A stretch of DNA of 39,966 bases from NCBI GenBank assembly GCA_030247525.1, contig JAOTSC010000009.1, forward strand, positions 1 to 39,966, given 5' to 3'. Below the pieces are notes generated by a model that was not told where the DNA came from, ran no database searches, and worked only from the letters and a program-made list of their open reading frames with translations. Positions 5,334 to 30,644 of this stretch are shown in pieces (the stretch's first letter is position 1; every line of letters begins with the position of its first letter). Source of the stretch: a bacterium. Its GTDB lineage: Bacteria > Electryoneota > JAOADG01. A program made the position numbers and the translations under genes.

Positions 5334-5361
5334 TATGATTAAGAATTTCTCTTACAACGAA

Positions 5362-5613
5362 TCAACTCATGCTAGTAACAATTGGAACTAATATCGGTTC
5401 TCTAATCACTTTACCACTTTTTTCTTTCATTTTATTCAAATCTCGGTTTGCTTCAAGAACAAGCGAAATCGCTTCTTTGAGATTCTCTCGGGTTTCTTCT
5501 AAAGTTGATCCTTGAGTGATAGCACCGGGAGTCTCTTCGGCATAACCGATCCACCACTTTTTTCGTTTGATGAAAACAGCGGTGTATTGGTTGAGTTTTA
5601 CCCGTTCTTGCAT
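5362..5613 (-). CDS. HicB-like (UPF0150) antitoxin-type protein without a HicA partner
   Basis: An 83-residue protein with the HicB partial RNase H-like fold: a strand YTAVFIKRKKWWIGYAEE, then PGAITQGSTLEETRENLKEA, the usual signature, and a helix. The C-terminal tail is basic and ends IREPILVPIVTS. HicB antitoxins bind the HicA mRNA interferase, normally encoded next to them. No HicA-like frame is found in the 37 bp upstream or 129 bp downstream, so it is an orphan: a remnant, a solitary regulator, or one acting in trans. GAGG lies seven bases before the ATG. It lacks an obvious DNA-binding C-terminal domain. Confidence 0.72.
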   Translation of the reverse strand: MQERVKLNQYTAVFIKRKKWWIGYAEETPGAITQGSTLEETRENLKEAISLVLEANRDLNKMKEKSGKVIREPILVPIVTSMS

Positions 5614-5650
5614 CGGTATTCCTCAAAAAAAGAATCACATATACAAGCGT

Positions 5651-6565: not shown

Positions 6566-6570
6566 AATAA

Positions 6571-6975
6571 CTATTCACCACCAATATCGCTGTGGAAATC
6601 GCCTAGTTTACGAACTACCATTTCCAACCTGCCAATCTGTTCGATACAGTCGTCGCGGTCTAACCGAATATTCATCGAAGTATCGAACTCATAACGATAA
6701 AATACCGCGAAGTCGGTCAAATCCTGCAAGGAACGAAACTCTCCGGTATCTTGTTTATTCGCATCCAGTAAATCGAATAATACCCTTAGATCGTGAGTGA
6801 ATGGATAGTCTATCTCGATTGATGACAACCAACACTTCAAGAACTTCTCAACCGCTTGTTGTGCATGAAATCCGAAGACTTCGGTATCGAAATCCCCTTG
6901 ATTGAGCTTCCGTAACGTATACAAATCGCGAAGTCCGACACGATACAATCGAACCCCATCGTTACCGGTTTTCAT
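6571..6975 (-). CDS. HEPN domain protein paired with a nucleotidyltransferase
   Basis: A 134-residue all-helical HEPN protein (PF05168 type) with FHAQQAVEKFLKCWL and the following FTHDLRVLFDLL, the classic first two helices. The ATG at 6975 lies inside the end of the nucleotidyltransferase gene (14-bp overlap), so the two are translationally coupled; the frame is open further upstream but that stretch is the overlap with the partner gene and carries no homology. HEPN toxins cut RNA through an R-x4-6-H motif. I see FYRYEFDTS at the expected site but no His at the correct spacing, so RNase activity is doubtful and the protein may be an inactive or differently acting HEPN. Confidence 0.78.
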   Translation of the reverse strand: MKTGNDGVRLYRVGLRDLYTLRKLNQGDFDTEVFGFHAQQAVEKFLKCWLSSIEIDYPFTHDLRVLFDLLDANKQDTGEFRSLQDLTDFAVFYRYEFDTSMNIRLDRDDCIEQIGRLEMVVRKLGDFHSDIGGE

Positions 6976-7288
6976 ACAGAACTTTACCTTCCCGAAGCGC
7001 TCGTGAAACGATGTGATTCTTTGAGTTCCGGTATTGTGCAACTTCACTCGATGAAAACAGCAGAAAATCCGCCGGTGGAAATCCGAACGGAAGATGTGAG
7101 CGAATCTGTTTTAATAGATTCCAACGTCCCGATTCGCGGACGAGCGCATCATCTACCTCCACCAAAAAGTCGTAGTCTGATTGGTCGTTATAATCCCCTC
7201 TTGCTCGCGAACCGAACAGCAACATTCGTACCGGATGTACCGTTGCGACAACTCGTTGGACGATTTCTTCATAGGTATCGGATTTCAT
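6962..7288 (-). CDS. minimal nucleotidyltransferase (MNT), HEPN partner
   Basis: A 108-residue DNA polymerase beta-like nucleotidyltransferase. The GS-x10-DxD motif is complete: G26 S27 in FGSRARGDY and D38/D40 in SDYDFLV. In MNT/HEPN modules such proteins act as antitoxins, in studied cases by AMPylating the HEPN toxin. It follows an acyl-CoA dehydrogenase gene by 16 bp and overlaps the HEPN gene downstream. AGGGA precedes the ATG. Only the minimal catalytic core is present, so it is not a full-length resistance-type adenylyltransferase. Confidence 0.85.
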   Translation of the reverse strand: MKSDTYEEIVQRVVATVHPVRMLLFGSRARGDYNDQSDYDFLVEVDDALVRESGRWNLLKQIRSHLPFGFPPADFLLFSSSEVAQYRNSKNHIVSRALREGKVLYENR

Positions 7289-7304
7289 GTTTGTCCCTAC
7301 TCAA

Positions 7305-8471
7305 CTAAGCAAGCAGATTGCCCTTCTGTAAAATCTCGCGAGAAATAATCAAACGCTGGATTTCACTGGTTCCTTCGCCGATTTCGCACAGTTTCGCGTC
7401 GCGCATCATTCGCTCAACGTGATACTCTTTGATGTAACCATAACCGCCGTGTATCTGAATCGCCGTTAAACAAGTACGCGTGGCGACTTCGCTCGCATAC
7501 AACTTCGCCATCGACGATTCTTTGATGTAATCGCGGCCTGCATCCTTCAATTTCGCTGCGTGATAAATCAAGTGGCGAGCCGCTTCGATTTCGGTCGCCA
7601 TCGTCGCCAACTTCATCTGGGTCGATTGAAATTCGGCAATCGGCTGATTGAATTGTTTCCGTTCCTGGGCATACTTAGCCGAAGCGAGAAACGCTCCTTC
7701 CGCCAATCCTAATGCCATCGCGCCGATGGAAATCCGGCCACCGTCGAGGACGTGAAGGAATTGCTTAAAGCCTTCCCCCTCTTTGCCTAAAATATTCTCG
7801 GCGGGGATTTTGCAGTTATCGAAATGGAGTGTCGCGGTATCGCTCGCGCGGCATCCCATCTTGTTTTCCTTCTTACCAATCGAGAACCCGGGAGTACCTT
7901 TTTCAATAATGAATGAGGAAATTCCCTTGGTCTTTTTCGAGCGGTCGGTCATCGCGGTCGCGACAAAAGTATCGGCGTAATTGGAATTGGTGATGTAGAT
8001 TTTCTGTCCATTCAACACCCAACTGCCATTCTCGCGCACAGCGGTTGTTTGCGTCCCCCCGGCATCGCTGCCGGCTTCCGGTTCGGTCAATCCGAATGCG
8101 CCGATGACATCGCCCCGGCACATTGGCGGCATATACTTTTTCTTCTGTTCATCGGAACCGAAGAGATAGATTGGACCTAATCCCAACGAAGTATGAGCCG
8201 CGAGGGTGAGTGCCGTGGAACCATCCACTTTGGCAATCTCCTCGATGGCGACCGCATAGCCGAGATACCCGAGATTCGCACCATCGTACTCCTCCGGATA
8301 GGGAATCCCCATCAGTCCCAATTCGCCCATCTTCTTAACTTGTTCGAGCGGAAATTTTTGAGTCTCGTCATACTCAATGACGTGTGGTGCTAATTCATTT
8401 TGTGCGAAATCAGCGACCATCTCGCGCATCATGAGCACTTCTTCCGGCAACAGAAAATCTAAGTTTTGCAT
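7305..8471 (-). CDS. acyl-CoA dehydrogenase, second paralogue
   Basis: A 388-residue flavoprotein oxidising an acyl-CoA at the alpha-beta position. FGLTEPEAGSDAGGTQT is the family signature, QIHGGYGYIKEYHVER the late motif, and the catalytic Glu is about E366 in EIGEGTSEIQR. The ATG at 8471 is chosen because GGAAGGAAAG stands directly upstream; a TTG 21 bases further up would translate that ribosome site. It is clearly divergent from the copy at 1243-2385 (for example IGEGT against IYEGT). It is bracketed by two MNT/HEPN gene pairs, an odd position for a metabolic gene. Chain-length preference is not decidable here. Confidence 0.93.
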   Translation of the reverse strand: MQNLDFLLPEEVLMMREMVADFAQNELAPHVIEYDETQKFPLEQVKKMGELGLMGIPYPEEYDGANLGYLGYAVAIEEIAKVDGSTALTLAAHTSLGLGPIYLFGSDEQKKKYMPPMCRGDVIGAFGLTEPEAGSDAGGTQTTAVRENGSWVLNGQKIYITNSNYADTFVATAMTDRSKKTKGISSFIIEKGTPGFSIGKKENKMGCRASDTATLHFDNCKIPAENILGKEGEGFKQFLHVLDGGRISIGAMALGLAEGAFLASAKYAQERKQFNQPIAEFQSTQMKLATMATEIEAARHLIYHAAKLKDAGRDYIKESSMAKLYASEVATRTCLTAIQIHGGYGYIKEYHVERMMRDAKLCEIGEGTSEIQRLIISREILQKGNLLA

Positions 8472-8509
8472 TCTTTTCTTTCCTTCCCCCAATCAAGGAT
8501 TCGTCGTTG

Positions 8510-8851
8510 TTAATTACGTTCCATTATTTTTGTCAACGACAGTTTCAATAACGGAATTTCAGTCGTTGCTACTGTCCAGATCAAATCCAAATCAACATCA
8601 AAATATCCATGGGCTATGCGATTCCGGATGCCGACAATTCCTAACCAGTCAACATCACAATACTGGTTACGGATTTCCTCAGAAAGTCGTTTTGTCAATT
8701 CGCCAATAACGATCAATGACATCAAAATGGCATCTTTTAACATCTTCTCAGAACGAAGATGTTCTGGTGTTCTACCTTCGAGATATGATTCGATGTTACT
8801 AATAACCTCAAGGATTTCTTGAATTGTGATGTAATCGCTATGCTTTGACAA
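8510..8851 (-). CDS. hepT: HepT-like RNase toxin (DUF86/HEPN)
   Basis: A 113-residue HEPN-family RNase. The active-site motif R-x4-H-x-Y is intact: RNRIAHGY at about residues 76-83. In studied HepT proteins this motif cleaves RNA, and its Tyr is the residue AMPylated by MntA to neutralise the toxin. No ATG is available near the 5' end; a TTG at 8851 with GGAGG nine bases upstream is preferred over a TTG at 8869 that lies upstream of that ribosome site. It overlaps the end of mntA by 14 bp, so the pair is co-translated. It ends 39 bp before the acyl-CoA dehydrogenase gene, which may be read from the same transcript. Confidence 0.87.
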   Translation of the reverse strand: MSKHSDYITIQEILEVISNIESYLEGRTPEHLRSEKMLKDAILMSLIVIGELTKRLSEEIRNQYCDVDWLGIVGIRNRIAHGYFDVDLDLIWTVATTEIPLLKLSLTKIMERN

Positions 8852-9137
8852 GGAGTAAATCCTCCTCAATGGATTGCCGGAGTCTTGGCGACACCGCTCT
8901 GGTTGAAACCAAATCGACTCGCCTTCCCAACAATTCTTCTAAGTACTCCGCCAAATGAACAAATTTAAGACCGATACTTGGATCAAAATCGACCAAAATA
9001 TCGATGTCGCTATCCTCTGTAGCGTCGCCGCGAGCATAGGAACCAAACAAACCAATCGACCGTACCCGATACTTTTCTTGCAGTTCCGGCAAGTGCGCGC
9101 GCAAGACCTCCCGAATGGAATCCGGGGTTAATTGCAT
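8838..9137 (-). CDS. mntA: MntA-like nucleotidyltransferase antitoxin
   Basis: A 99-residue minimal nucleotidyltransferase with GS-x10-DxD complete: FGSYARGDATEDSDIDILVDF, G32/S33 and D44/D46. In characterised MntA-HepT systems it transfers AMP from ATP to the HepT tyrosine. The start at 9137 is set by GGAG six bases upstream of ATGCAATTAACC; the frame is open to 9182 but without a better site. The gene order MntA then HepT with overlap is the family norm. Together with the neighbouring 8510-8851 gene it forms a complete-looking type VII toxin-antitoxin module. Confidence 0.87.
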   Translation of the reverse strand: MQLTPDSIREVLRAHLPELQEKYRVRSIGLFGSYARGDATEDSDIDILVDFDPSIGLKFVHLAEYLEELLGRRVDLVSTRAVSPRLRQSIEEDLLLVKA

Positions 9138-9189
9138 TTCTCCACATTTCACATTTACATCGTTAGACACGTTTCTTTTCAACCCACTT

Positions 9190-10257
9190 TCAGTACAATT
9201 CTTCTAAAAACTCTAAAGCGAATTTTGTTTGCACTTTTCTTGCTTGGTACAAAGGAATTTTTAATGATAGTTGTTTTAGAATGTTTATTATTTTCGTTCT
9301 ATTTTCTGGTAGGATTTTGCAACCAAGGATAACACACGCCAAAGAACTGCGATCAAATCTTAATCCTACATTTGCAGATGTCTGATTTCCATTTTCATCA
9401 AGCGAAAAAACGATTACTCTAAATTCTCGTTCATATTTCCAACCATACGATTTTGTCAAAAATAAGTTCTTAATCAATTTATTAACATCTTTATTTTTAC
9501 AAACTTCATAAAAATTCCAGTCAGGAATATTACTTTTATAATCGACATATTCTCTGTAAATTTTTAATTTTGATTTCGATAAAATTTCCATTCGATTGTG
9601 TTGGAAACCGACAACAAACCCTTTATGATAATCAGCATAATGTGACCACATTAATGATTCATCATGTCGTTTGGTCAATGACAATACACCGTAATATTCG
9701 ACTGTATTATTGATATATCCCTCTTCCAAACCTTTCATGAAATCTCTGTTTGGGTTCTGAATTATTCGGTTTGCTTTGTTTTCTACCTCAACTTTTGATT
9801 TATCATCAGCTTCTAACATATCACAAATAAACTTCTTTTTGTCTTGATTGCTCCCATTCTGAAACGGGATTGGTAGTTTACAATCAAATGGATCATTAAA
9901 ATTTGATGGTGCTGAAAAGAAAAGCTCATTGTGAGTCAGTATTCGCAGACCATATTGAATCAACGCTCTGTATCTTCCACGCGGCTTATTTCTCCATTCA
10001 GGCGTTTTCTTAAAATCTCGATACTTAAACAACTGCCCGGCAAATCTCTCATCGATTTCCAGTTCCTCATCCCTAATCGTTCGCAATAGAATTCGTTTCG
10101 GTACTTTTCCCTCGTCAAAGTGACGCTTCACCGCTTCTCGAATCTTGAGTTTTAGTTCGCTAAGCGTTTCCGCTTCGGTGAAGATTGATTCGCCGATTGC
10201 CTTCGCAGTGTACCCACCTTTCTCCGCTTCTCGAATCTCGAAGATGATTTCGTCCAT
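9190..10257 (-). CDS. fusion of a HicB-like N-terminal domain and a DUF2971 domain
   Basis: A 355-residue protein (ATG at 10257; a GTG at 10293 in the same frame is possible). Residues 1-65 resemble the small HicB-like/UPF0150 family: GGYTAKAIGESIFTEAETL followed by KIREAVKRHFDEGKVPKRI. From about residue 76 a DUF2971 domain follows, with LFFSAPSNFNDPFDCKL, then ESLMWSHYADYHKGFVVGF, and SYGWKYEREFRVIVF near the end. DUF2971 is of unknown function and is often found in variable or defence-rich regions. The DUF2971 coding part (about 9190-9990) is strikingly AT-rich, while the HicB-like part has the base composition of its neighbours, suggesting that a transferred gene was joined to a local domain. 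It sits directly upstream of mntA-hepT. Confidence 0.75.
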   Translation of the reverse strand: MDEIIFEIREAEKGGYTAKAIGESIFTEAETLSELKLKIREAVKRHFDEGKVPKRILLRTIRDEELEIDERFAGQLFKYRDFKKTPEWRNKPRGRYRALIQYGLRILTHNELFFSAPSNFNDPFDCKLPIPFQNGSNQDKKKFICDMLEADDKSKVEVENKANRIIQNPNRDFMKGLEEGYINNTVEYYGVLSLTKRHDESLMWSHYADYHKGFVVGFQHNRMEILSKSKLKIYREYVDYKSNIPDWNFYEVCKNKDVNKLIKNLFLTKSYGWKYEREFRVIVFSLDENGNQTSANVGLRFDRSSLACVILGCKILPENRTKIINILKQLSLKIPLYQARKVQTKFALEFLEELY

Positions 10258-10306
10258 GTTGTTTCCATTGTTTTCTACAAATGGGATCGCCACGTCATTC
10301 CATTTC

Positions 10307-10332
10307 GTAAGTCGGCGAAGCGCCGACGTTAC
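10307..10332. repeat. palindrome between TonB-receptor and DUF2971 genes
   Basis: Arms GTAAGTCGGCG and CGCCGACGTTAC pair around AAG with one bulged base. There is no T-run on either side, so it is more like a dispersed palindromic element than a terminator. It may still protect the 3' end of the receptor mRNA. Confidence 0.5.
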
Positions 10333-10361
10333 TTCATTTCATTCCTCGCGAAGACAAGCTG

Positions 10362-12461
10362 TTACTTTTTCCACTCTAACGCCAGCGCGACGGTGTAGTT
10401 GCGCGGTAGCCCCGGCTCGAGGTATGCCGGTTGCGCCGTCGTCGGAATTTCCGGATTGATGTACGTCGAAGCGATATACTTTCGATCCGCAAGATTCTCC
10501 ACCATCGTCGTAAACCGTAGCGAGAGTTCCTTCGACACCGGTTGTTTCCAAACGATCCCGGCGTCTACCAATTGGTACGAATCGATTTTAAGCCTGTTCG
10601 CATCGTCGGCATAATAATCGCCAACTCCCCGCACTTTCGCCGATAAAGAAAGCTGAGAAAGCAGAATCGGACGATACTCCGCACTCAGCGAGTAAAACCA
10701 ATCAGGTACGCCCGCCACCCGGTTCTCAGCAAAGCTTTCCGCACCATCGATCGCTTGATATTCCCGATACCGGTGTTGTTGCCAAGTCAATGCGGCGCGA
10801 GTCGAAATCCCTTGCGAGAACGCGCACACCCCGCTCCACTCGACGCCATACCTTTCGCTGGACGCCTTCGATGCATAGTATTTGCCATTATCGTAAGGTA
10901 TCAATTCGTCGGAGACGGTAATCCGGTAAACGGCGATTTCGCTGCTCCAGCGCGACAACCATTTTTCACCAGCGCCAAAGATTTTCCAGCCGGCTTCTAA
11001 TGTGCGCGAACGCATCGGTTCGAGATTCGGATTCAGAATTGTCAACGTATCCCAACCCGGCGGCGGATTCACTTCGTTTCCTGCCGGCACTTCGATCCCG
11101 CCGCTATACTGCAAATAGAGGGATTGATCGACTCGCGGGAGCCAACTCACCGCGAGCCGCGGCGACCATACCGAAAATTGCTTTGCGTCGTCCAATGCCG
11201 GATGCAGCATATCGTGGAAATCGTAATCGACCCAATCGTTCCGGAATCCAATCGTACCGCGCCATTGCCGCCACTGCAGATTTCCGGTTAGGAACATGCC
11301 GTAGTTACGGACGATTTCGTCTTTCTTGTCCGATGTTACGGTACCGCGCTGGCCATCGACCAAATTCCGGAACTCGCCGATACCGCTTTGACTTGAAAAA
11401 TCGACACCCATCGCCGCTGTAAACGACAAAGATTCCGTATGCTGGAATTTGCGTTGTAACACGGCATCGCCGCCCCACAATACCCGGTCGAAATCGCGAT
11501 AAGTATTCCGTTCCGAACGTTCCAACCGCTTCGGATTGTAAAACGCGCGTATCTCGAGTGCGTGATTTCCGGGCAACTCCGCAATCAACCAACCGCCCGC
11601 CAATCCCAATTTATTGATTCTACGCTCGTCACGCCGTTGATAGGTCGCATTCGCCAGCGTCGGGTTTTCCGATACCTGCGCTTCCGTTAATGCACCGGGA
11701 ATCTTAAAGGAATTCTCGACGCCTGCGAGCGAGAAACCGTACTGCGCTGTTTGCGAAAGATTGCCCGCCATCGAGGCGCGAAAACCGGTACGGTCGCCAT
11801 CGGAGTGGTCTCGCCAGCCATCGTATCGGGAACGGTACACCACCGCGGAATACTGTTTTCCCGCATACGACCCTTCGCCGCTGATCGTCGAACGTTGATA
11901 TCCGTGTGCGCCGACATCTTGTTCTATCGAAACCGCCGGCGAACCGCTGCCGGTGCTGCTCTGCAAATGAAGGACGCCGCCTGAGGCATTCCCCCATAAC
12001 GTCGAAGCATTGGTGCGCACCACTTCGATCTTTTGCAAAGTGGATAACTCAACCAAATCGAGCGATGTTCTGCCATCCGGTTCGGTTAAGGGAATACCGT
12101 CGAGTAGTACCCGCACCCCGCGAATGGTGGCGGCATTGGAACGCTCGGCGGCTCCCCGCGACCCGAATCCGCGAATCGTTAAACGAACATCACTGCCGCC
12201 GTACCGTGACTGCGCAAATACGCCGGGCACTTCACTCAATGCCTTATCGAGACCGGCGCTAATGGCATTGCTTTGCTGACGGACTCCAATCACATTCACC
12301 GAATAAGGGGCTTCCAGTAATGTCGTCGGTTGCCGTTCCGCCGTTACCGTTATCTCACGCAGGGTCGTCGTCGCGGTAGTATCTGGCTTAGCGTTTGTGT
12401 TGCCCACTAGTCCGATTATCGCCAAAACTACAAAGAGACAGAAATTGAAATGTCGTTTCAT
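10362..12461 (-). CDS. TonB-dependent outer-membrane receptor
   Basis: A 699-residue outer-membrane beta-barrel that imports a substrate using TonB energy. The N-terminus MKRHFNFCLFVVLAIIGLVG is a signal peptide. A TonB-box-like stretch LREITVTAER follows at about 34-43, then the plug domain with SYGVTV-like strands, RLTIRGFGSRG, VLLDGIPLTEPDG, and KIEVVRTNASTLWGNASGGVL, and then about 500 residues of alternating strands forming the barrel. The C-terminus PRNYTVALALEWKK has the aromatic/hydrophobic alternation of a last strand. The organisation resembles iron-siderophore and cobalamin receptors, but the substrate is undetermined. It lies 59 bp downstream of the CoA-transferase genes and could be cotranscribed with them. 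Confidence 0.92.
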   Translation of the reverse strand: MKRHFNFCLFVVLAIIGLVGNTNAKPDTTATTTLREITVTAERQPTTLLEAPYSVNVIGVRQQSNAISAGLDKALSEVPGVFAQSRYGGSDVRLTIRGFGSRGAAERSNAATIRGVRVLLDGIPLTEPDGRTSLDLVELSTLQKIEVVRTNASTLWGNASGGVLHLQSSTGSGSPAVSIEQDVGAHGYQRSTISGEGSYAGKQYSAVVYRSRYDGWRDHSDGDRTGFRASMAGNLSQTAQYGFSLAGVENSFKIPGALTEAQVSENPTLANATYQRRDERRINKLGLAGGWLIAELPGNHALEIRAFYNPKRLERSERNTYRDFDRVLWGGDAVLQRKFQHTESLSFTAAMGVDFSSQSGIGEFRNLVDGQRGTVTSDKKDEIVRNYGMFLTGNLQWRQWRGTIGFRNDWVDYDFHDMLHPALDDAKQFSVWSPRLAVSWLPRVDQSLYLQYSGGIEVPAGNEVNPPPGWDTLTILNPNLEPMRSRTLEAGWKIFGAGEKWLSRWSSEIAVYRITVSDELIPYDNGKYYASKASSERYGVEWSGVCAFSQGISTRAALTWQQHRYREYQAIDGAESFAENRVAGVPDWFYSLSAEYRPILLSQLSLSAKVRGVGDYYADDANRLKIDSYQLVDAGIVWKQPVSKELSLRFTTMVENLADRKYIASTYINPEIPTTAQPAYLEPGLPRNYTVALALEWKK

Positions 12462-12520
12462 GATCAGGTCTTCTTAAACTCAAGAATGTTGTCCCCCCAA
12501 TCATTCAATAGAAAACATCC

Positions 12521-13180
12521 TTACCGATATTCGATGGTTTTCAAATCTGGCACCGCCAAAAACTCGGCTTCAGTTTGTGCGGAAATGTCGTCAACCCTTA
12601 GCCCTTCGGCGATTTCACAGAGGAACATTTGCCGTGTATGTTTTTCGATTCGGAAGACAGCGTTTTCGGTTATCACCATATCGACGCAGTGTACTCCGGT
12701 CAGCGGCAAGGTACATTTTCGCAAAATCTTAGCTGCACCTTTCGCGGTATGCTGCATCGCAACAATGACCCGCTTCGCCCCCGCGACCAAGTCCATCGCG
12801 CCGCCCATCCCTTTCACCATTTTCCCGGGAATCATCCAATTGGCAAGGTCGCCTTCCTGCGAAACCTGCATCGCTCCGAGAATGGTTAAATCGACGTGAC
12901 CGCCGCGAATCATCGCAAAACTATCGGCGCTCGAAAAGTACGATGCGCCGGGAACCGCCGTCACTGTTTGCTTTCCGGCATTGATCAAATCGGCGTCGAC
13001 TTCCGCTTCGACCGGAAATACTCCCATTCCCAACAGCCCGTTTTCCGATTGCAGCATGACAAACATCCCGTCGGGAATGTAATTAGCTACTAGGGTCGGC
13101 AAGCCGATTCCGAGATTCACCGCAAATCCGTCCTGCACCTCTAAGGCGGCGCGGCGGACGATTTTTTCTTCAAATGTCAT
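12521..13180 (-). CDS. scoB: 3-oxoacid CoA-transferase, subunit B
   Basis: Beta subunit of a class I CoA-transferase that exchanges CoA between succinyl-CoA or acetyl-CoA and acetoacetate. The 219 residues fit ScoB/AtoA. The catalytic glutamate is E46 in [23 protein letters not shown] precedes it and [18 protein letters not shown] follows, both family-typical. It follows subunit A by 63 bp. Its presence links acetoacetyl-CoA, the product of the Hbd/upstream steps, with free acetoacetate. The precise CoA donor (succinyl-CoA or acetyl-CoA) cannot be read from the motifs. Confidence 0.93.
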
Positions 13181-13243
13181 TCTTGTTCACCAATTATCGA
13201 AAATGGTTACACTCACAGCGCTATAAAACACGCATTCACGATT

Positions 13244-13951
13244 CTACCGAACGGTACGCCGCTCAATCCGCTTCTCGCGGGGAGCGACGATGATGTAGTC
13301 GACGAAAATTCCCGGGGTATGAACATTCTCTTGATCCAATGCGCCGAGTTCCACCAATTCTTCCACTTCGGCAACCACGATATCGGCAGCGGTCGCCATC
13401 ATGGGATTAAAGTTGCGAGCAGTTTTCCGGTAAATGAGATTCCCATAGGGATCGGCTTTCCAGGCGGCTACCATCGCAATCCTGCCGCGAATCCAGCGCT
13501 CCATCAGGTATTCGCGCTCTTCATTGGATTGATCGAGAAATATCTTTGTCTCTTTCCCTTCCGCGATTGGTGTACCGACGCCGGTCGGGGTATAGAACGC
13601 AGGAATTCCAGCGCCACCGGCCCGTAAACGTTCGGCAAAAGTGCCTTGGGGAACAAACTCAATCTCCAATTCGCCATCTAAGTACTGGCGCTCAAATGTT
13701 GCATTCTCACCAACATAAGTCGAAATCATTTTTTTGATCTGGCGGGTCTGCAACAACAAACCTAATCCCCAGTCATCGACTCCCGCATTGTTCGACACAC
13801 AGGTGAGGTTCTTCACCCGGCTGTCGCGCAGGGCGAGGATCAGATTCTCTGGAATGCCGCAAAGTCCGAACCCACCCAACAAGATGGTGTCGCCGTCATG
13901 CGGTTCGATTTTCGCAATCGCTTCCGTTGCGGAAGTGAGTACTTTGTTCAT
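13244..13951 (-). CDS. scoA: 3-oxoacid CoA-transferase, subunit A
   Basis: Alpha subunit of the same CoA-transferase, 235 residues. GGFGLCGIPENLI (26-38) is the CoA-binding signature, SNNAGVDDWGLG and the loop GGAGIPAFYTPTGVGT follow, and TARNFNPMMATAADI is typical of the C-terminal half. AAGG lies shortly before the ATG. The gene is first of the scoA-scoB pair and is read divergently from the ferritin-like gene; the 359-bp region between them probably holds both promoters. Confidence 0.93.
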   Translation of the reverse strand: MNKVLTSATEAIAKIEPHDGDTILLGGFGLCGIPENLILALRDSRVKNLTCVSNNAGVDDWGLGLLLQTRQIKKMISTYVGENATFERQYLDGELEIEFVPQGTFAERLRAGGAGIPAFYTPTGVGTPIAEGKETKIFLDQSNEEREYLMERWIRGRIAMVAAWKADPYGNLIYRKTARNFNPMMATAADIVVAEVEELVELGALDQENVHTPGIFVDYIIVAPREKRIERRTVR

Positions 13952-17863: not shown

Positions 17864-19987
17864 CTACTTCAGCAACACCATCTTTTGCGTTTGAGAAAAT
17901 TCCCCTGATTGCAAGCGAAGTAAGTAAGTACCGGTAGAAAGTGATGTTCCATCGAGGGTGACTTTATACGATCCCGGGTTTTGATGAAAGTTCACCAGCG
18001 TTGCCACTTCGCGACCGTTGATATCGAATACTTTCAAGTCGACTTTTCCCGTTTTCGGAATGGTGTACTCAATGGTGGTAGTCGCATTGAATGGGTTAGG
18101 GTAGTTCGGTTTCAGATTAAGAGACTGTGGTACTTCTGTTCCGACTCGATCCACCACTCCGAGTGCTTGCGAGCAGTCGTAGATACCGAATTCCTGTCCA
18201 GCGGCGACATAAGCGAGGTTACCGTTTACTGTAACTTTATATGTATGTGCAAACTCTGGTGTATCGTAAAAACCGACCTCAGTGGGATTCTGTGGATTGC
18301 TGACATTGATGATCCGCAAACAGTCGTAGTCTGCAATATAGGCGTAGCTGCCGGATACATCGACACCATAAGCAAGCCCTGTCGTTACGTAATAACCGAC
18401 TTCTAATGGACTTGCCGGATTGCTAATATTGATGATCCGCAAACCGTAGCTGTAGTCTGCAATATAGGCGTAGTTGCCCGTTATCTTTACATCAGAAGCA
18501 CTCCCAGGTGTATTGTAAGAACCGACTTCAGTCGGATTTGCCGGATTGCTGATATTGATAATTTGTAAACCACTAGTGCCATCTGCTACATAGGCGTGGC
18601 TGCCAACTACTTTTACACCATAAGCCCAGCCAGGTGTATCGTAAAAACCAATCTCTGCGGGATTTGCCGGATTGCTGACATTGATGATCCGCAAACCACT
18701 AGTACCATCTGCTACATAAGCGTGGCTGCCAGATACAGCGACACCATAAGCATTCTCAGGCGTATCGTAAGAACCGACTTCTAAAGGACTTGCCGGATTG
18801 CTGATATTGATGATCCGCAAACCGGAATAGTAGTCTGCGACATAGGCGTAGCCTCCTGCTACCGTAATACCATGAGCTTCTCCCGGTGTATCATAACAAC
18901 CAACCGACGTAGGATTCATAGGATTACTAACGTTGATAATCCGCAGGCCAGAGTTATCATCTGCGACATAGGCGTAGTTACCAGATACCATTGCATCAAG
19001 AGCATCGCCTTGCGTATCGTAAGAACCGACCTCAATAGGGTTTACCGGGTTGCTGACATTGATAATCCGTAATCCTGATAAATATGCCACGACATACGCG
19101 TAGTTGCCTGCCAACGTTACACATGTAGAAACTGGCGAATCGCAAAAACCTACCTCAGTTGGATTAAACGGATTGCTAATGTTGATTATCCGCAGAGATC
19201 CATCTCCCACATAGGCGTAGCTGCCTACAACCGTTACACAATATGCAAACCCTGGAGTATCGTATGAACCAACCGAAATTGGATTTGTAGGATTACTGAC
19301 ATTGATTATCTGTAATCCCGAAGTATAATCCGCTACGTAAGCGTAGCTGCCTGATACAGTAACACCATAAGAAATCCCCGGTGTATCGTAAAAACCGACC
19401 TCTACAGGATTTGCAGGATTGCTGATATCGATGATTCGCAAACTATAAGTATCATCTGCAACATAGGCGTAGTTCCCTGAAATGGCGACATCCCAAGCGT
19501 GACCCGGCGTATCGTAAAAGCCAACTGAAGTAGGATTTGCCGGATTGCTGATGTTAATGATTTGCAATCCCGAAGTACCGTCCGCGACATAGGCGTAGTT
19601 GCCCGCGACCGCTACACTTCGCGAATAACCTGGTGTATCGAAAAAACCGACCTCTATTGGATTTGCTGGATTGCTAACATTGATGATTCGAAGTCCAAAA
19701 TCTGCATCCGTAACATAGGCGTAGTTGCCGGAAACCTTTACATCATTAGCATTACCCGGCGTATTGCAAAAACCTACCTGTGTAGGATTTGCCGGATTTG
19801 TGATATTAACAATCTGCAGTCCAGAAGATCCATCAGCAATATAGGCGTAGTTCCCTGAAACATCGACAGCAAATGAGTACGTGCGCCAGAATCTGCCGAG
19901 ACAGCGGACATGTAAGCTGTCTTGCGCGAAGGAAATTGTGGAAAGGAAAAGAAGAAAACTTATAACCACAAAGCGAAGGTTTCGCAT
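17864..19987 (-). CDS. secreted LVIVD-repeat protein with C-terminal sorting-type domain
   Basis: A 707-residue exported protein. The first 21 residues form a signal peptide ending ISFAQ. From about residue 37 come thirteen repeats of about 42 residues plus a degenerate fourteenth, each of the form [20 protein letters not shown] followed by [14 protein letters not shown]. These are LVIVD repeats, which make beta-propeller blades, and fourteen would suit two seven-bladed propellers. From residue 611 a C-terminal domain with [18 protein letters not shown] and [11 protein letters not shown] resembles the type IX secretion sorting domain of FCB bacteria. It is likely a surface or released adhesion/binding protein. 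AGGAG lies nine bases before the ATG. Both flanks are occupied by palindrome clusters. Confidence 0.9.
18173..19879. repeat. 126-bp coding tandem repeats of the LVIVD protein
   Basis: The repeat shows at DNA level: near-identical blocks such as CATAGGCGTAG and GGATTTGCCGGATTGCTGA recur every 120-126 bp about fourteen times. Such an array can change copy number by slippage or recombination and may be misassembled from short reads. Confidence 0.85.
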
Positions 19988-23826: not shown

Positions 23827-24020
23827 GAAATCTCCAGTAGATAGCGTTGATTTTCTACAAAACTAACAATCTGTGATTGCTCCTGCAATGTGAGAGACAA
23901 CCAGTTATTCTCAGAGAGATGATCAGGAATGTGAAATCTATTGTAACTAAACGAATACTCTTGCCTTCTTACAATTCGGTAGGTACCTTGAAACAGACTC
24001 CACTCCCTGAGAGGCATGCT

Positions 24021-25445
24021 ATGAAACACCAACGTCTTACCCACACCATCCTGTGTTTCCTTCTACTTGGATGCGCCATTGTTCCAACGGCGTTCGCACA
24101 AATCGTCGCGCCAGAAAGCGGTGTGTGGGATGACGCCCATTCGCGTTATCTTTTCTCCTGTGCTGGGAACGGCACTATCGTCTCACGATCACTGGGCGGG
24201 CAAACATCGATATGGGCATCCGGCTTAACGCAACCAAAAGGAATGGCACTACTCGGCGATACCCTCTATGTAACCGATGTTACAATCGTGCGAGCATACA
24301 ACCTGAATTCCGGTCAATTCTTATTCACCATGACATTTCCCGCGTCAAGTTTTTTGAATGATATCGCCGTCGATACGGAGTTCATCTTCGTATCAGATAT
24401 GCAAGTCAATGCAATATATCGGGCAACCGTCGGCAGCCGTGCCGGTTCACCCTATTGCGTCGGCAACGTACAAGCGCCCAACGGGATTTGGATTGATCAT
24501 CCGAATAATCGCGTCCTGTTTGTTTCGTTCCGGGTGAATTCACCGATCCAGTCGGTTTCACGTACCGAGAGCGGCAGTGCCACCACCGTTCGTACCACCA
24601 CACTTTCCGAATTGGATGGCTTCACCTGCGACCGTTGGGGTAGATACTATGTAACGAGTTGGACTACCAACTCGGTCTACCAAATCTCGTTGCAAGAGAG
24701 CTCTACTCCAGTCGTTGTTGCGAGTAATATCAACGGACCCGCTGATATGTTCATCGGACCGACCGATTCCGTTCTTGTTGTTCCAGCAATGAACGCCAAC
24801 CAAATACAATTTGTGCCGTTTTCCTTGCCGCCAACTGGACGAATAAATTCACTAACCGGTTCTCTGCGGTTTTACTTTCATCCTAATACACCTTGTTATG
24901 AAAACATATTCGTTACGAATACAGGAACCGTTCCGCTTCACATCGACTCGATCCGAACAAATCAAACGTATTTTTTCCCATCACCCGATTCCAGCTACAC
25001 GGTCGAACCCTCTGATACTATTTCGATCCGAATCGGATGTTTAGTCCCTTACGACACTTCTCGATTTGTTTGGGGAGATATCTATTTATTCAGTGACGAC
25101 CGATACCAGTTTGTAACAGTAATTTCCGCCCAAGCAAGCAATATCGACATGGCTGTTTCCGAACCATTTCAGAATCCAATTGGATTTTCTATATCGCCAC
25201 TATATCCTAATCCATTCAATGCTGAAGCAAAACTCCGGGTGAAAGTTACACAAGCGACTCACCTTCAGATTTCCTTACATAATCTCGAAGGGAGATTTCT
25301 CCAGTCCATCGAAAATCGAAACGTAACTCCCGGTGTATTTGACTACTCCCTCTCCTCACAATCGTTAGCAAATGGAGTATATTTTGTGCAAATACGAGGA
25401 AACGGGAGACCAATCGCGACACACAAAGCAGTCGTTTTAAAATAG
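24021..25445 (+). CDS. secreted beta-propeller protein with C-terminal sorting-type domain
   Basis: A 474-residue exported protein. The N-terminal signal runs to AFAQ (about residue 27); it contains LLLGC, which resembles a lipobox, but the later AFA-Q site and the C-terminal sorting domain favour ordinary cleavage. Residues about 30-270 have NHL/SMP-30-like propeller strands (GTIVSRSLGG, LDGFTCDRWGRYYVTSW). A choice-of-anchor-like Ig domain follows (NIFVTNTGTVPLHIDSI). The C-terminus has YPNPFNAEAKLRVKV and LANGVYFVQIRGNG, a type IX sorting-type domain like that of the LVIVD protein. The ATG at 24021 follows GAGAGG; the frame is open from 23877 but that part is not signal-like. Function beyond secretion is unknown. 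Confidence 0.8.
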   Translation: MKHQRLTHTILCFLLLGCAIVPTAFAQIVAPESGVWDDAHSRYLFSCAGNGTIVSRSLGGQTSIWASGLTQPKGMALLGDTLYVTDVTIVRAYNLNSGQFLFTMTFPASSFLNDIAVDTEFIFVSDMQVNAIYRATVGSRAGSPYCVGNVQAPNGIWIDHPNNRVLFVSFRVNSPIQSVSRTESGSATTVRTTTLSELDGFTCDRWGRYYVTSWTTNSVYQISLQESSTPVVVASNINGPADMFIGPTDSVLVVPAMNANQIQFVPFSLPPTGRINSLTGSLRFYFHPNTPCYENIFVTNTGTVPLHIDSIRTNQTYFFPSPDSSYTVEPSDTISIRIGCLVPYDTSRFVWGDIYLFSDDRYQFVTVISAQASNIDMAVSEPFQNPIGFSISPLYPNPFNAEAKLRVKVTQATHLQISLHNLEGRFLQSIENRNVTPGVFDYSLSSQSLANGVYFVQIRGNGRPIATHKAVVLK

Positions 25446-25473
25446 AATTATTTTGGTGTTGTCGATTGTGTAA

Positions 25474-25506
25474 ATCGGGTGGCTTCACGTCACCCGGTTT
25501 TTTTTG
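25474..25506 (+). terminator. intrinsic terminator
   Basis: CGGGTG and CACCCG pair around GCTTCACGT and are followed by a run of eight T. It ends the secreted-protein transcript and precedes cmk. Confidence 0.85.
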
Positions 25507-25565
25507 AAACAATCTTCCGAGCTTGCATTCTCGGTGGAATAATGTATGTTATAGGAAACTTTTTG

Positions 25566-26288
25566 ATGGAGCGAACCTTGCCCCTCGGATCCCTTCGATT
25601 CACATTAGAACAATTGCCGGTTATCGCGATCGATGGTCCGGCAGGAGCTGGAAAAAGCGCAGTTGCAAAACTAGTCGCTTCGGCTCTGCAACTTCCTCAT
25701 ATCGACACCGGCGCGATGTACCGTGCATTGACATACAAGGCGATGCGCAAGGATGTTTTATTAGAAGATGGGCTAATGCTTGCTGAGCTTGCCGACAACA
25801 GTATGATCACTTTCACAGCCGATGGAAAGACGATTCTCGACGGTATCGATGTTTCCGATGCGATTCGGTCCCCCGAAGTATCTGCAAACGTAAGTGCGGT
25901 ATCGGCGCATCCTGCCGTACGAGAGCGGATGGTCGATTTGCAGCGAGCAGCCGGTGCATTAGGCGCGGTTTTAGAAGGTCGCGATATCGGAACGGTGGTG
26001 TTTCCTGATGCGATTCTTAAAGTATTTTTAATCGCATCCGACGTCGTTCGGGCGAAACGCCGTCAACTTGATTTACAATCGATGGGAGTTGAACGGACAT
26101 TGGAGGAAGTACTCGAAGAAATCCGCCGGCGCGATAAATTCGACAGCGAGCGTGTCACCTCCCCATTACGCAAAGCACGCGATGCAAAATCACTCGACAC
26201 CTCCAATCTTACGATTGAACAAGTTGTCGGAACAATCGTTCAATGGGCGAATGAGAATGGAGTCGGAATCGTATGGCAGGCAGTTTAA
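25566..26288 (+). CDS. cmk: cytidylate kinase
   Basis: Phosphorylates CMP/dCMP with ATP. With the start at 25566 the protein has 240 residues (E. coli 227). P-loop GPAGAGKS is at 24-31, IDTGAMYRALT follows as the CMP-binding segment, LEGRDIGTVVFPDA is the signature, and RRRDKFDSER lies in the lid. AGGAAA lies seven bases before ATG 25566; an ATG at 25542 (with GGTGG) is also possible. It opens a plus-strand operon: the plsC start codon lies 16 bp inside its 3' end. The cmk-plsC adjacency is common in bacteria. Confidence 0.92.
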   Translation: MERTLPLGSLRFTLEQLPVIAIDGPAGAGKSAVAKLVASALQLPHIDTGAMYRALTYKAMRKDVLLEDGLMLAELADNSMITFTADGKTILDGIDVSDAIRSPEVSANVSAVSAHPAVRERMVDLQRAAGALGAVLEGRDIGTVVFPDAILKVFLIASDVVRAKRRQLDLQSMGVERTLEEVLEEIRRRDKFDSERVTSPLRKARDAKSLDTSNLTIEQVVGTIVQWANENGVGIVWQAV

Positions 26289-26932
26289 CCGCTCGTACAA
26301 GCCGTCGGTTCGGCTATTGGTTCATTCAGTTGATCGCCCGTTGCGGACTTAAAGCGCTGTTCGGCATGAAAGTTGTTGGTCTGGAAAATGTTCCCCGAAC
26401 CGGAGGGCTGTGGTTAGTCTCCAATCATCAATCGAATTTTGATCCACCAATTGTCGGTTCGACCGTACCTCGGGAAATTTATTTTGCTGCAAAGAAATCA
26501 CTGTTCAAAGGACTGTTGGGAAAAATCATCGTGTATTGCAATTCGATACCGGTGAATCGAACAGGATTCGATCTGGATATCGTTCGTAAAACGACAACGC
26601 TGGTGAAAAACGGGAATGCCGTTATCATTTTTCCCGAAGGAACCCGTTCATTGGATGGTACATTTCTTCCCATTAAAGGCGGCGTCGGGATGTTACTGCA
26701 GATGGCTCCAGCAATGGTATTACCCATCCGGATTGAGGGGAGTTGGCGGCTCGATAAAAAAATGTACCGGAAAGAAAAACTCTGTTTGTATGTTGGAAAA
26801 CCAATTCCACCCGAACAATTTCTCAATGTGGAAGGGGAAGGCACTGAGCGCCATGTAGCCATCGCCAACGCTGTATTTAACGAAATCCGTAAGTTAGGAA
26901 ATGGTAATCCGGAACGTGCAGCGAATGAGTGA
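26273..26932 (+). CDS. plsC: 1-acyl-sn-glycerol-3-phosphate acyltransferase
   Basis: Acylates lysophosphatidic acid at position 2 to form phosphatidic acid on the membrane. The 219 residues contain the catalytic H-x4-D motif in NHQSNFDPP (H52, D57), the substrate-binding VNRTGFD region, and PEGTRS (121-126). It starts within the end of cmk and its stop overlaps the start of the next gene (ATGAGTGA), so three genes are translationally linked. An N-terminal amphipathic/hydrophobic stretch (YWFIQLIARCGLKALF) would place it at the membrane. Confidence 0.9.
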   Translation: MAGSLTARTSRRFGYWFIQLIARCGLKALFGMKVVGLENVPRTGGLWLVSNHQSNFDPPIVGSTVPREIYFAAKKSLFKGLLGKIIVYCNSIPVNRTGFDLDIVRKTTTLVKNGNAVIIFPEGTRSLDGTFLPIKGGVGMLLQMAPAMVLPIRIEGSWRLDKKMYRKEKLCLYVGKPIPPEQFLNVEGEGTERHVAIANAVFNEIRKLGNGNPERAANE

Positions 26933-27995
26933 ACCACCTCAATTCCTTCCCGAGCCGGAGCAATGCGAAATCCTCACGCGGCTCTTTACGCAGCACTATG
27001 GCAGCGATTGCACATCAATTAACAGGTTAAAAGGTGACGCGAGTGCTCGTTCCATTTTCCGGCTGACTTCTGCAAAGAATACCAGCGTTATTGGAGTATA
27101 TGGACCACATCCGGAAGAGAACCGCGCATTTCTTGCCTTTACCAAAGAATTCATGTCGGCGAAGCTACCGGTACCTCAACTGTTAAGTAGTGAAGATTCT
27201 GGTTTTGCGTATTTGCTGGAAGACTTGGGCGATGAGACACTCTTCCTGCGATTAAACTCCTTACGTGGTGAAAACCACCGACAGTTTCCCAGCGATGCTA
27301 TCGGATCGTTCTACCGGGAGGCGGTTCAGCAGTTAGTACAATTCCAAACGAAAGTACATCTCGCGCCGCTTCGGCAATTTTGTTATCAGGGTGATGTCTT
27401 CGATGGTGCCGCATGGCAACGCGATCATCAGTATTTTCTGAATATGTTCGTTGCGACGTTACATCCCGATAAATTCGACCGGAAGGCGTTATCGGAAGAG
27501 TTCACGCAACACTACGCTCTACTATCCGACTTTCCGAAGGGATATTTTTTATATCGCGATTTTCAATCGCGTAACATTATGGTCACTCCACTCGGTCTTC
27601 GCTTTCTCGATTATCAGTCGGGACGGGAAGGGTCGCCAGTCTACGATATTGCATCGTTGTTGTATGACGCCCGAGCAAATCTCCCCGAAGACTTCCGGCA
27701 AGAGTTGCGCGAACTGCATTGCGAAGTCTTTTCCGATCAAACCGGGGTGAAACCAAAAATTCTGCGAGAAGCATTTGCGCCATACGCCCTATTGCGTATT
27801 CTGCAAGCGCTCGGCAGTTACGGCAATAATGGAATAAAACAACGGAAACCGGGCTATGCCGATTCGATTCCGTTTGGCATTCAAAACGCTTTGACGGTAC
27901 TGGAAACCGATACCCGATTACGAAAATTCACCAACTTACAACGTCTGCTTACGCGTATCGCCGAGCAGGAATCTTGGATAAACCTTTTGTCATAA
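26925..27995 (+). CDS. amgK: AmgK-like sugar kinase (aminoglycoside phosphotransferase fold)
   Basis: A 356-residue APH-fold kinase. By resemblance to AmgK, it probably phosphorylates MurNAc or GlcNAc at the anomeric carbon in cell-wall recycling. Visible: GDASARSIFRL near 38-48, the typical AmgK glycine-rich start; VPQLLSSED and YLLEDLGDETLF; the catalytic loop YRDFQSRNIM with D212 and N217, in which Tyr replaces the usual His of the APH Brenner motif; and LDYQSG with metal-binding D229. The ATG at 26925 overlaps plsC by eight bases; an in-frame start at 26901 is possible. It is directly followed by the RapZ-C/MurU-like fusion, and an AmgK-MurU pair forms the known anabolic recycling route to UDP-MurNAc. 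Substrate is inferred from family and neighbour. Confidence 0.8.
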   Translation: MSEPPQFLPEPEQCEILTRLFTQHYGSDCTSINRLKGDASARSIFRLTSAKNTSVIGVYGPHPEENRAFLAFTKEFMSAKLPVPQLLSSEDSGFAYLLEDLGDETLFLRLNSLRGENHRQFPSDAIGSFYREAVQQLVQFQTKVHLAPLRQFCYQGDVFDGAAWQRDHQYFLNMFVATLHPDKFDRKALSEEFTQHYALLSDFPKGYFLYRDFQSRNIMVTPLGLRFLDYQSGREGSPVYDIASLLYDARANLPEDFRQELRELHCEVFSDQTGVKPKILREAFAPYALLRILQALGSYGNNGIKQRKPGYADSIPFGIQNALTVLETDTRLRKFTNLQRLLTRIAEQESWINLLS

Positions 27996-28016: not shown

Positions 28017-29156
28017 ATGGATTTGTTGATACGCATCTACAGTTTTGGTTTTAGTACAGGTAATCAACCCCTTGATCCAACTGGTAATGGCGGCGGATTT
28101 GTTTTCGATTGTCGAGGACTCTACAATCCCGGTCGCGTCGACGAACTTCGTAACCAAACCGGACGCGACTTTGCTGTGTGTTCGCTGCTTGACAACGAAT
28201 CCGACGTCGCGGGTTTTCTCGATCATACCTATGAGTTAATCATAAATATCGCTACTACCTATAAGATGCGTGCGTTTACCGATTTATCGGCGGCATTTGG
28301 TTGCACCGGCGGACGGCATCGTTCGGTGTACTGCGCCGAGCACATCGCGAATCGGTTACGTACTGCCGGTTATAAAGTGAGGGTCGTTCATTGGCAAATG
28401 GAACGGGTAGAATCTCGATTTGCAACCCGTCGGGCGATGGTTTTAGCGGCGGGACTGGGTACCCGATTGCAGCCGATTACCAACACCATTCCGAAAGCTT
28501 TGGTAACCGCACACGGTAAATCGATGTTGGATTGGACGCTCGAATCGCTGGAACGTGTGAATTGCCGGGAAATCACGATCAATAGCCATCATCACGCCGA
28601 TCAAATTGAATCATGGATTGAGGAAAAACGTTCACAACTAAACTCAACCATATTGCACTATTCTTTTGAACCAGAGATTCTGGGAACCGGCGGTGGCATC
28701 CGCCAGGCGGCGCGTTGGCTTCACAGCCCAACTCCGGTACTTATTCACAATGCCGATATCTGGAGCGACTTTGACTGGGAAGTACTCTATACGCTTCATC
28801 GCAAAGAAGATCTCGCATCGCTGGTTGTTCAGAAACGGCAAAGTAGCAGCTATTTGTTAGTCGACGAAGAGCAGCGGGTATGTGGATTAGAGACGAAAGG
28901 CATTCGCCGGATTGTAGCTACTCCACATGGCGAACTTTCGCAATTTGGATTCTGTGGTGTGCATTTAGTTTCGACAACGCTACTGGAGCAAATTCATACG
29001 CTAAAACATGCGTCGATTATCGAGAGCTATTTAGAATGGATCGCAAACGGTGCGACAGTTCGAGCTATCACTCTTGCCGGAAACTGGTTTGATATGGGTT
29101 CCCCGGAAAAACTGGAACAATTATCACACTTTTTACAAACGAAAATGAATTCGTAA
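28017..29156 (+). CDS. fusion of RapZ C-terminal domain and MurU-like nucleotidyltransferase
   Basis: A 379-residue protein in one uninterrupted frame. Residues 1-135 resemble the C-terminal domain of RapZ: IYSFGFSTGNQPLDP, FVFDCRGLYNP, and the hallmark GCTGGRHRSV (95-104), ending with the VRVVHWQME strand. The N-terminal P-loop ATPase of full RapZ is absent. Residues 138-379 are a sugar-1-phosphate nucleotidyltransferase: MVLAAGLGTRLQPIT (141-155), EILGTGGGIRQAA, metal-binding D247 in NADIWSDFDW, FGFCGVHLV, and GNWFDMGSPEKL, close in pattern to MurU, which makes UDP-MurNAc from MurNAc-1-P. In E. coli the RapZ C domain binds GlcN6P. The fusion next to an AmgK-like kinase suggests sensing of an amino sugar coupled to UDP-sugar formation; the coupling is inference. 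Internal ATGs at 28399 and 28437 might allow a shorter NTase product. Confidence 0.82.
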   Translation: MDLLIRIYSFGFSTGNQPLDPTGNGGGFVFDCRGLYNPGRVDELRNQTGRDFAVCSLLDNESDVAGFLDHTYELIINIATTYKMRAFTDLSAAFGCTGGRHRSVYCAEHIANRLRTAGYKVRVVHWQMERVESRFATRRAMVLAAGLGTRLQPITNTIPKALVTAHGKSMLDWTLESLERVNCREITINSHHHADQIESWIEEKRSQLNSTILHYSFEPEILGTGGGIRQAARWLHSPTPVLIHNADIWSDFDWEVLYTLHRKEDLASLVVQKRQSSSYLLVDEEQRVCGLETKGIRRIVATPHGELSQFGFCGVHLVSTTLLEQIHTLKHASIIESYLEWIANGATVRAITLAGNWFDMGSPEKLEQLSHFLQTKMNS

Positions 29157-29167: not shown

Positions 29168-30592
29168 ATGGACTCTTTGAACAAAATCATCAATGATGCG
29201 ACTCAGCTTCATCAGGAAGGTAAACTTGATGAGTCGATAGCTCTTTGGCGCAAGGCTTTGCAAGAAGCGGAGTTCAATAAATTATTGGAATTGCGTGCCG
29301 AGATTCAGAGTCAGTTAGGCGCACTTCTTTTTGAACGTGAACAAATCGAGGAAGCGTTTCTAATGCTGGAAGAATCGCTGACTTATTTTATCGATAACAA
29401 GCTACTTTATAAAGCCTGTTCGGCTTATGCGAATTTAGCAATTCTTCATCGTACCAATGGCAGAGTCGATGACTCTTTCGAGTGCTATAATAAATCACTG
29501 GAAATTGCCCAGCAACTCAACGACTCGGCAAGCGAAGCTTCAATTCTTGGCAGTTTAGCCGGGATGTTGTACGAGCAAGGAAACCACACTGCAGCGTCGG
29601 TGTATATCGAAAAAGCGATTGCCTTGCACCGTGAATTGGGAAATCAATCTCAAATTGCTCGCTTGTTGTCCAGTGCAGCGAAAGCGCACATCGAATGGGG
29701 AAGACTCGCCGAAGCCCGATCCGAAATTTCTGAAGCATTGTCTATCGCAGAGTTATTAAACGATCGCAATACGATTCTCATTCTGCGCGATACACAAGGG
29801 TTACTCGAGATAACAACCGGAAATTGGCAGGAGGCATCAGAAATATTGCGGAATGCCATTGTTTTGAGCCGTGAGTTGGAATACACCCGGATGGAGGGAA
29901 CACTGCTTTGCAATCTGGGCATCGCACTGATGATGCAAGGCAATGCCGAGGAAGCGCTCGAAGCATTTTCGCAAGCGGCGGCCATTCAATTTAGAATCGG
30001 AAACCGGCGCTCAGAGGCGGTTGCAATAAACAATTATGCCGATTTGTTAGCTGCCCTGGACCGTAGTGAAGAAGCCTACCACAGCTATCATCAAGCGTTG
30101 GAAATCAACCGCGCAGTGCATAATCGATTCTCGGAAGCTATCCTGCTCGATGGTTTAGGGTTGTTAGCGGTTGAGCGCGGAGAGCCGGATGAAGGAATCC
30201 AAAATTACGAACAAGCAATAAATATTCTTCGCGAGATAAACGCGAATTTTGAGTTATGCACTACGCTTTGCCGGGCAGCTCGGGTATTTGCGATTTATGG
30301 TCGCACTGAAGACGCAGAGATGTTTACTAAAGAAGCAATCCAACTCGCTACACAATTCGATTTGGAACATGACAGGATCTACCTCGAAACTGCTCAAAGC
30401 CGGATGGCAGCATTGCACGAAGACAATTCTTTAGCGTTGCACCACTATCAAACTGCGGCCACTCTGTTCGAGAAGTTCCAAATCGGAGCGCGAAACGCGT
30501 ACGGGAAAGAACTCGGTAGGTTGCGCAGCGAGCTACTGGATATCGGAATTGGTGATGATTTGCTGTCTTACCCTTCCCATTGGCGGGATTGA
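29168..30592 (+). CDS. TPR-repeat protein
   Basis: A 474-residue protein built of about ten to eleven tetratricopeptide repeats of 34-40 residues, for example SACSAYANLAILHRTNGRVD, LLCNLGIALMMQGNAEEALE and AILLDGLGLLAVERGEPDEG. There is no signal peptide or membrane segment, so it is cytosolic, and no enzymatic domain is seen. The gene starts 11 bp after the RapZ-C/MurU fusion and ends at a strong terminator, so it is probably last in the cmk operon. It resembles scaffold TPR proteins; the binding partner is unknown. Confidence 0.82.
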   Translation: MDSLNKIINDATQLHQEGKLDESIALWRKALQEAEFNKLLELRAEIQSQLGALLFEREQIEEAFLMLEESLTYFIDNKLLYKACSAYANLAILHRTNGRVDDSFECYNKSLEIAQQLNDSASEASILGSLAGMLYEQGNHTAASVYIEKAIALHRELGNQSQIARLLSSAAKAHIEWGRLAEARSEISEALSIAELLNDRNTILILRDTQGLLEITTGNWQEASEILRNAIVLSRELEYTRMEGTLLCNLGIALMMQGNAEEALEAFSQAAAIQFRIGNRRSEAVAINNYADLLAALDRSEEAYHSYHQALEINRAVHNRFSEAILLDGLGLLAVERGEPDEGIQNYEQAINILREINANFELCTTLCRAARVFAIYGRTEDAEMFTKEAIQLATQFDLEHDRIYLETAQSRMAALHEDNSLALHHYQTAATLFEKFQIGARNAYGKELGRLRSELLDIGIGDDLLSYPSHWRD

Positions 30593-30613: not shown

Positions 30614-30644
30614 AAAAAAAGGAGCGACGAATCACTCCTTTTTT
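30614..30644. terminator. bidirectional intrinsic terminator
   Basis: AAAAAAAGGAG and CTCCTTTTTT pair around CGACGAATCA. The A-run on one side and T-run on the other make it functional in both directions. It lies between the TPR gene and the convergent subtilase gene. Confidence 0.85.

Follow-up and report, generated by a model that had tools for sequence, protein, structure and literature searches.

What does the C-terminal domain of RapZ do when it is joined to a sugar nucleotidyltransferase and placed behind a sugar kinase? This question is posed by one frame in a 39,966-nucleotide stretch of DNA from a bacterium of the phylum Electryoneota (assembly GCA_030247525.1, contig JAOTSC010000009.1; the whole stretch is termed the window). 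RapZ has been studied as an RNA adapter, and most bacteria possess its C-terminal domain (RapZC) without the RNA-binding residues. The AmgK-MurU pairs of Pseudomonas, in turn, are devoid of RapZC. No publication linking RapZ with AmgK or MurU was found in a literature search that left most subscription journals outside, and the phrase "RapZ C-terminal domain" occurred in a single paper of the literature searched, which concerns E. coli RapZ. The fusion described here, and the triad of kinase, RapZC and MurU to which it belongs, are real and conserved and represent an apparently undescribed form of an established salvage pathway; database architecture pages may list such fusions. The best explanation, to which we assign a somewhat better than even chance, is a MurNAc salvage module in which RapZC acts as a putative phospho-amino-sugar-binding regulator of the salvage step, independently of RNA.

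Architecture and predicted fold of the fusion protein

The frame at 28,017-29,156 (plus strand) starts with ATG and comprises 379 codons uninterrupted by a stop. An earlier note, drawn from the letters alone, had read it as an N-terminal RapZC (residues 1-135) followed by a MurU-like nucleotidyltransferase, and both halves were confirmed by profile searches and predicted folds. Residues 4-128 (28,026-28,400, plus strand) match the Pfam family PapZ_C (PF22740; E 7e-29) with 100.9 bits against a gathering cutoff of 27. The MurU-like domain spans residues 139-374 (28,431-29,138, plus strand), of which 140-374 match NTP_transferase (PF00483) with 76.4 bits against a cutoff of 21.2, and features the motifs LAAGLGTRL, TGGGI, NADIWSDFD and NWFDMG. 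Among NCBIfam families, MurU (NF045761) and RapZ (NF003828) fit best, the latter over its C-terminal part only; the MurU score of 119.7 bits lies under the equivalog cutoff of 250 and is still that of the best family.

AlphaFold2 modelled the whole fusion with a pLDDT of 96.8 and a pTM of 0.93, and its RapZC domain with a pLDDT of 93.7. In Foldseek comparisons, the predicted fold of residues 1-132 resembles the C-terminal domain of E. coli RapZ (5o5s; TM 0.86/0.92), and the RapZC model gave no significant match besides RapZ, while the best PDB match of the whole model is MurU (4y7u; TMt 0.83). The high pTM suggests that the two halves are held in a fixed mutual placement. The proposal that internal ATGs yield an additional, sensor-free nucleotidyltransferase found no support, as Met128 is not conserved, Met141 lies within strand 1 of the nucleotidyltransferase, and no obvious ribosome-binding site was seen at either codon.

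The fusion follows, with the spacing of 21 bp given in the earlier note, a gene for an AmgK-like anomeric sugar kinase, itself devoid of RapZC (26,901-27,995, plus strand, or from the ATG at 26,925). This protein matches the APH family (PF01636) with 45 bits, and its best NCBIfam family is AmgK (NF045759), albeit with 50.2 bits far under the equivalog cutoff of 550. Its motifs GDASARSIFRL and YRDFQSRNIM are common to 13 other triad kinases in the alignment. Since both the kinase and the MurU half score below the curated equivalog cutoffs, they are relatives rather than certified equivalogs, and their substrate is an inferred one.

Distribution within the phylum

Of the 39 genomes of the phylum, five contain PF22740, in one copy each and always within a two-domain frame of 382-409 aa that directly follows the same kinase. 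The other four fusions are 46-52% identical to that of the window, and the catalytic residues of the MurU domain (G146/G148/R150, K160, D247, D359) are invariant in all five. An assembly or sequencing error, or a chance joining of two genes, is thereby ruled out, for the same kinase and fusion recur in four independent genomes. The genome to which the window belongs (98% complete) contains neither the N-terminal domain of RapZ (PF03668) nor a second RapZC.

A RapZC-less pair was observed in four further genomes of the phylum (G003-G006, loci L135-L138), with the MurU-like gene first and the AmgK-like kinase second. In three of these genomes the MurU-like protein is extended by an additional tail, and the pair is present only in genomes that possess AnmK and lack MurQ.

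One module in three fusion states

A scan of bacterial genomes combined with domain classification yielded 72 loci other than RapZ, the five of the phylum included. At 59 of them RapZC is appended to the kinase at its C-terminal end, and a MurU gene usually follows; these loci belong mostly to Bacteroidota and Elusimicrobiota, as exemplified by L023 and L017, which share with the window the three parts, their order and the RapZC subfamily but carry RapZC on the kinase instead of on MurU. In the phylum of the window, RapZC is joined to MurU at all five loci, and this MurU-fused form is the rarest fusion state. At two loci (L018, L067) RapZC is a separate gene between kinase and MurU. The term self-contained, used in the earlier note, is no more than half right, for the occurrence of RapZC on the kinase or free-standing elsewhere makes it the third component of a broader module.

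The search that retrieved loci L006-L085 used the motifs FGCTGG[RK]H and G[NM]WFDMG, and the invariance of these columns is therefore biased among them. A motif-independent sample of 198 Bacteroidota genomes was drawn with a hidden Markov model, and its loci carry CTGGQHRS. In 24 of these genomes PF22740 was present, in 20 frames of 478-524 aa and four of 134-149 aa, and in none of the 198 did it occur in a frame of RapZ length. The order kinase, RapZC, MurU was kept at 11 of 12 inspected loci, and three of the four short-frame loci consist of three separate genes. Hence, RapZC appears to be a regular third partner in AmgK-MurU operons, with an order retained in Bacteroidota, Elusimicrobiota and others and with the kinase fusion as the commonest state.

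In a tree of RapZC sequences, many of whose inner forks lack resolution, canonical RapZ forms one group (support 100/97) apart from the triads, and the domains of L021 and L026 are placed between the two. At these two loci (L021:4898-6066 and L026:3295-4520) RapZC adjoins a MurU-like gene with no kinase beside it, in genomes that possess AnmK and lack MurQ.

Conserved and altered features of RapZC

The C-terminal domain of E. coli RapZ binds GlcN6P, about 10-fold more tightly when isolated than within the full-length protein (PMC7073468), which indicates that the domain can work alone. Its pocket comprises His190, which is essential, T248, G249, H252 and R253, with C247 nearby (PMC9841335). 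The residues C247, T248, G249, H252 and R253 are all kept in the window protein as C96, T97, G98, H101 and R102, within a phosphate-binding loop CTGGRHR (residues 96-102, corresponding to E. coli C247-R253; 28,302-28,322, plus strand) that is also a C-X5-R string. Cys96 and Arg102 are invariant in 85 of 85 sequences, the Cys column lying within the search motif and Arg102 outside it; D31, R33, N37, P38 and S103 are likewise outside the search motifs. After removal of the search motif, identity amounts to 49% for RapZC, compared with 41% for the kinase and 41% for MurU, and RapZC is the higher in 91-93% of pairs.

The resemblance to the E. coli domain thus extends to the fold, the CTGGxHR pocket and the DxR...NP motif. 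On the other hand, the window protein lacks the N-terminal P-loop ATPase (PF03668), is joined to a sugar nucleotidyltransferase, and has Gly39 in place of His190, a Gly being present in 92% of the 72 triad domains. Furthermore, column counts in the alignment revealed a triad-specific glycine-rich insert, GNGGG (residues 23-27; 28,083-28,097, plus strand), directly before FVFDCR; canonical RapZ does not possess this insert, and the FDCR string likewise distinguishes the triad domains from the E. coli one. The loss of His190 in most triad domains speaks for a changed ligand and, together with the glycine-rich insert, suggests one that is other or larger than GlcN6P, for instance a phosphate of MurNAc or GlcNAc. 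An invariant phosphate loop combined with an altered opposite wall would fit a phospho-amino-sugar sensor with such a changed ligand.

As regards RNA, the contacts of E. coli RapZ are mostly changed in the window protein (K170S, K194E, R211N, R238F and K270Y, with R196 kept), and the C-terminal basic KRK tail is absent from its RapZC. Since the genome moreover lacks the N-terminal domain, an RNA role for triad RapZC was rejected and, as judged from these residues, is unlikely. No GlmY/GlmZ-type RNA was found in the window with Rfam, in keeping with the earlier supposition of a module that operates without such RNAs.

Support for MurNAc salvage

The module resembles the AmgK-MurU pathway of Pseudomonas and Tannerella forsythia in that an APH-type kinase stands beside a MurU-fold uridylyltransferase and replaces MurQ, but differs from it by the addition of RapZC, by sequences under the AmgK and MurU equivalog cutoffs and, within the phylum, by the absence of AnmK from the module genomes. 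A profile of the triad kinases matched nine genomes of the phylum, namely the five with triads and G003-G006. All nine lack MurQ, and 28 of the 30 kinase-less genomes possess it, a mutual exclusion (Fisher p 2.6e-7, the genomes not being independent) that supports the assignment to MurNAc salvage made in the earlier note, as do fold and motifs. The exchange of MurQ for the kinase also occurs inside two families of the phylum (f2, f4). Outside it, MurQ and an AmgK-type kinase can coexist, as in Bacteroidota (Tannerella) and Elusimicrobiota. Within the phylum, only the genomes G019 and G024 lack both MurQ and an AmgK-like kinase.

MurA is encoded in all five module genomes of the phylum, which makes salvage an additional rather than the sole route. 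AnmK is absent from these five; its absence was rejected as a general rule for triads, given that it occurs in triad genomes outside the phylum. The genomes of L018, L021, L026 and L034 possess AnmK and lack MurQ. The family TIGR01449 matches HAD proteins in 12 of 12 genomes tested, none of which is clearly MupP.

T. forsythia, which lacks MurA and MurB, reportedly relies on AmgK and MurU (PMC7670621), and both proteins support labelling with MurNAc probes when placed in E. coli (PMC13041923). The Tannerella genome of our scan (L023) encodes a kinase-RapZC fusion plus MurU, and judging from this locus the AmgK of T. forsythia itself probably carries RapZC. The module is of relevance to MurNAc-dependent species of this kind, and because AmgK-MurU salvage skips MurA, it bears on the bypass of fosfomycin.

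Possible functions of RapZC in the module

By analogy with the respective families, MurNAc would be phosphorylated at C1 by the upstream kinase, and the MurU half of the fusion would then turn MurNAc-1-P and UTP into UDP-MurNAc, thus bypassing MurA and MurB. In the model, the N-terminal RapZC is predicted to be rigidly docked on the uridylyltransferase, where it most likely holds a phosphorylated amino sugar in the putative CTGGxHR pocket. Ligand-bound RapZC would then probably adjust or gate the salvage step without RNA, the ligand and the sign of the effect being a guess. A sensory or allosteric role is our best guess, which has to accommodate two observations: AmgK-MurU pairs without RapZC (G003-G006; Pseudomonas) demonstrate that the domain is dispensable for both reactions, and the alternation of the fusion partner between kinase and MurU is left unexplained by a simple MurU-specific allosteric switch.

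The position of RapZC between the two enzymes, fused to one or to neither, would also suit a dimerising scaffold that joins kinase and uridylyltransferase so that MurNAc-1-P is handed on without ligand control. The rigidity of the AlphaFold2 fusion model (pTM 0.93) and the dimerisation of the C-terminal domains of E. coli RapZ (PMC9841335) speak for this arrangement. A scaffold, however, has no need for an invariant pocket (C, T, G, G, H and R together with D31, R33, N37 and P38) that is conserved above the level of the enzymes, and we regard it as a serious but rather unlikely contender. Doubts of another kind concern the sugar itself, since the scores well under the AmgK and MurU cutoffs, as well as matches to RmlA, HddC and GMP-type nucleotidyltransferase profiles, would permit activation of GlcNAc, a heptose or a surface glycan sugar instead of peptidoglycan salvage. 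That MurU is both the best family and the best fold, that AmgK-type kinases exclude MurQ in the phylum, and that T. forsythia AmgK and MurU take MurNAc (PMC7670621, PMC13041923) renders this highly improbable.

RapZC might instead be catalytic. Its CX5R loop (CTGGRHRS) would then process an amino-sugar phosphate and could, for instance, strip MurNAc-6-P of its 6-phosphate ahead of AmgK in place of MupP. The invariance of Cys96 and Arg102 in all 85 sequences, along with D31 and R33, would agree with such chemistry, as would the inactivity of both C247A and C247S in E. coli RapZ, for which a possible catalytic SH group was raised by the authors (PMC9841335), and the phosphatase activity reported for the RapZ homologue YvcJ (PMC7525490). 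In addition, MurNAc-6-P is without a known outlet in the AnmK-positive, MurQ-negative genomes of L018, L021, L026 and L034. Conversely, Foldseek matched RapZ only and no phosphatase fold, E. coli RapZ binds GlcN6P with no report of cleavage found, and HAD phosphatases, possibly with MupP among them, are present; the five module genomes of the phylum, lacking AnmK, have no known source of MurNAc-6-P. Homology of RapZC to LMW-PTP was rejected, since the C-X5-R-S string alone is common, the hhalign profile comparison gave a probability of about 5%, and the Foldseek list contained no such protein. Altogether, catalysis of this kind seems improbable. A broader idea would make the C-terminal domain of RapZ, originally or even now, an enzyme or a handler of substrate in the salvage of muramic acid, with the RNA-binding RapZ of enterobacteria as a late re-use. 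In the triads the domain, through its CX5R loop with the invariant Cys and through D31 and R33, would carry out chemistry on a phosphorylated amino sugar between the AmgK and MurU steps. This idea is, in our judgement, decidedly speculative and would not be expected to hold.

The company that RapZC keeps with AmgK and MurU in several phyla, fused to either of them, ties the domain directly to sugar-nucleotide chemistry, and the triads offer small purifiable proteins for measuring its ligand and effect.

Genomic surroundings of the module

In the window, kinase and fusion are part of a plus-strand run of five genes between two terminator-like hairpins, of which solely these two stay together at other loci. 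The hairpin 5' of the run (25,472-25,500, plus strand) has a 12-pair stem and a T tail, and the closing one (30,615-30,644), found on the minus strand and with T-rich flanks on both sides, has a 13-pair stem and a T tail; both are consensus matches only. The run opens with cmk for cytidylate kinase (25,479-26,288, plus strand; PF02224, TIGR00017 above cutoff), whose true start probably lies 3' of the first GTG and which is a same-strand neighbour rather than a conserved part of the module. It is followed by a gene for a PlsC-type acyltransferase (26,273-26,932, plus strand; PF01553, E 5e-25) that overlaps both neighbours and is not kept at other triads. The last gene, identified by Pfam search, encodes a TPR protein (29,168-30,592, plus strand), starts 11 bp behind the fusion and is absent as a conserved neighbour at other triads.

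Elsewhere in the window, a minus-strand run of genes (162-13,951), as judged by eye from the starts and ends of the reading frames, resembles CoA-ester metabolism, with apparent acyl-CoA dehydrogenases, a thiolase, a 3-hydroxyacyl-CoA dehydrogenase and CoA-transferase subunits. Moreover, large secreted-looking proteins are encoded at 17,867-19,987 and 23,877-25,445, the C-terminal end of which resembles a type 9-type sorting tail.
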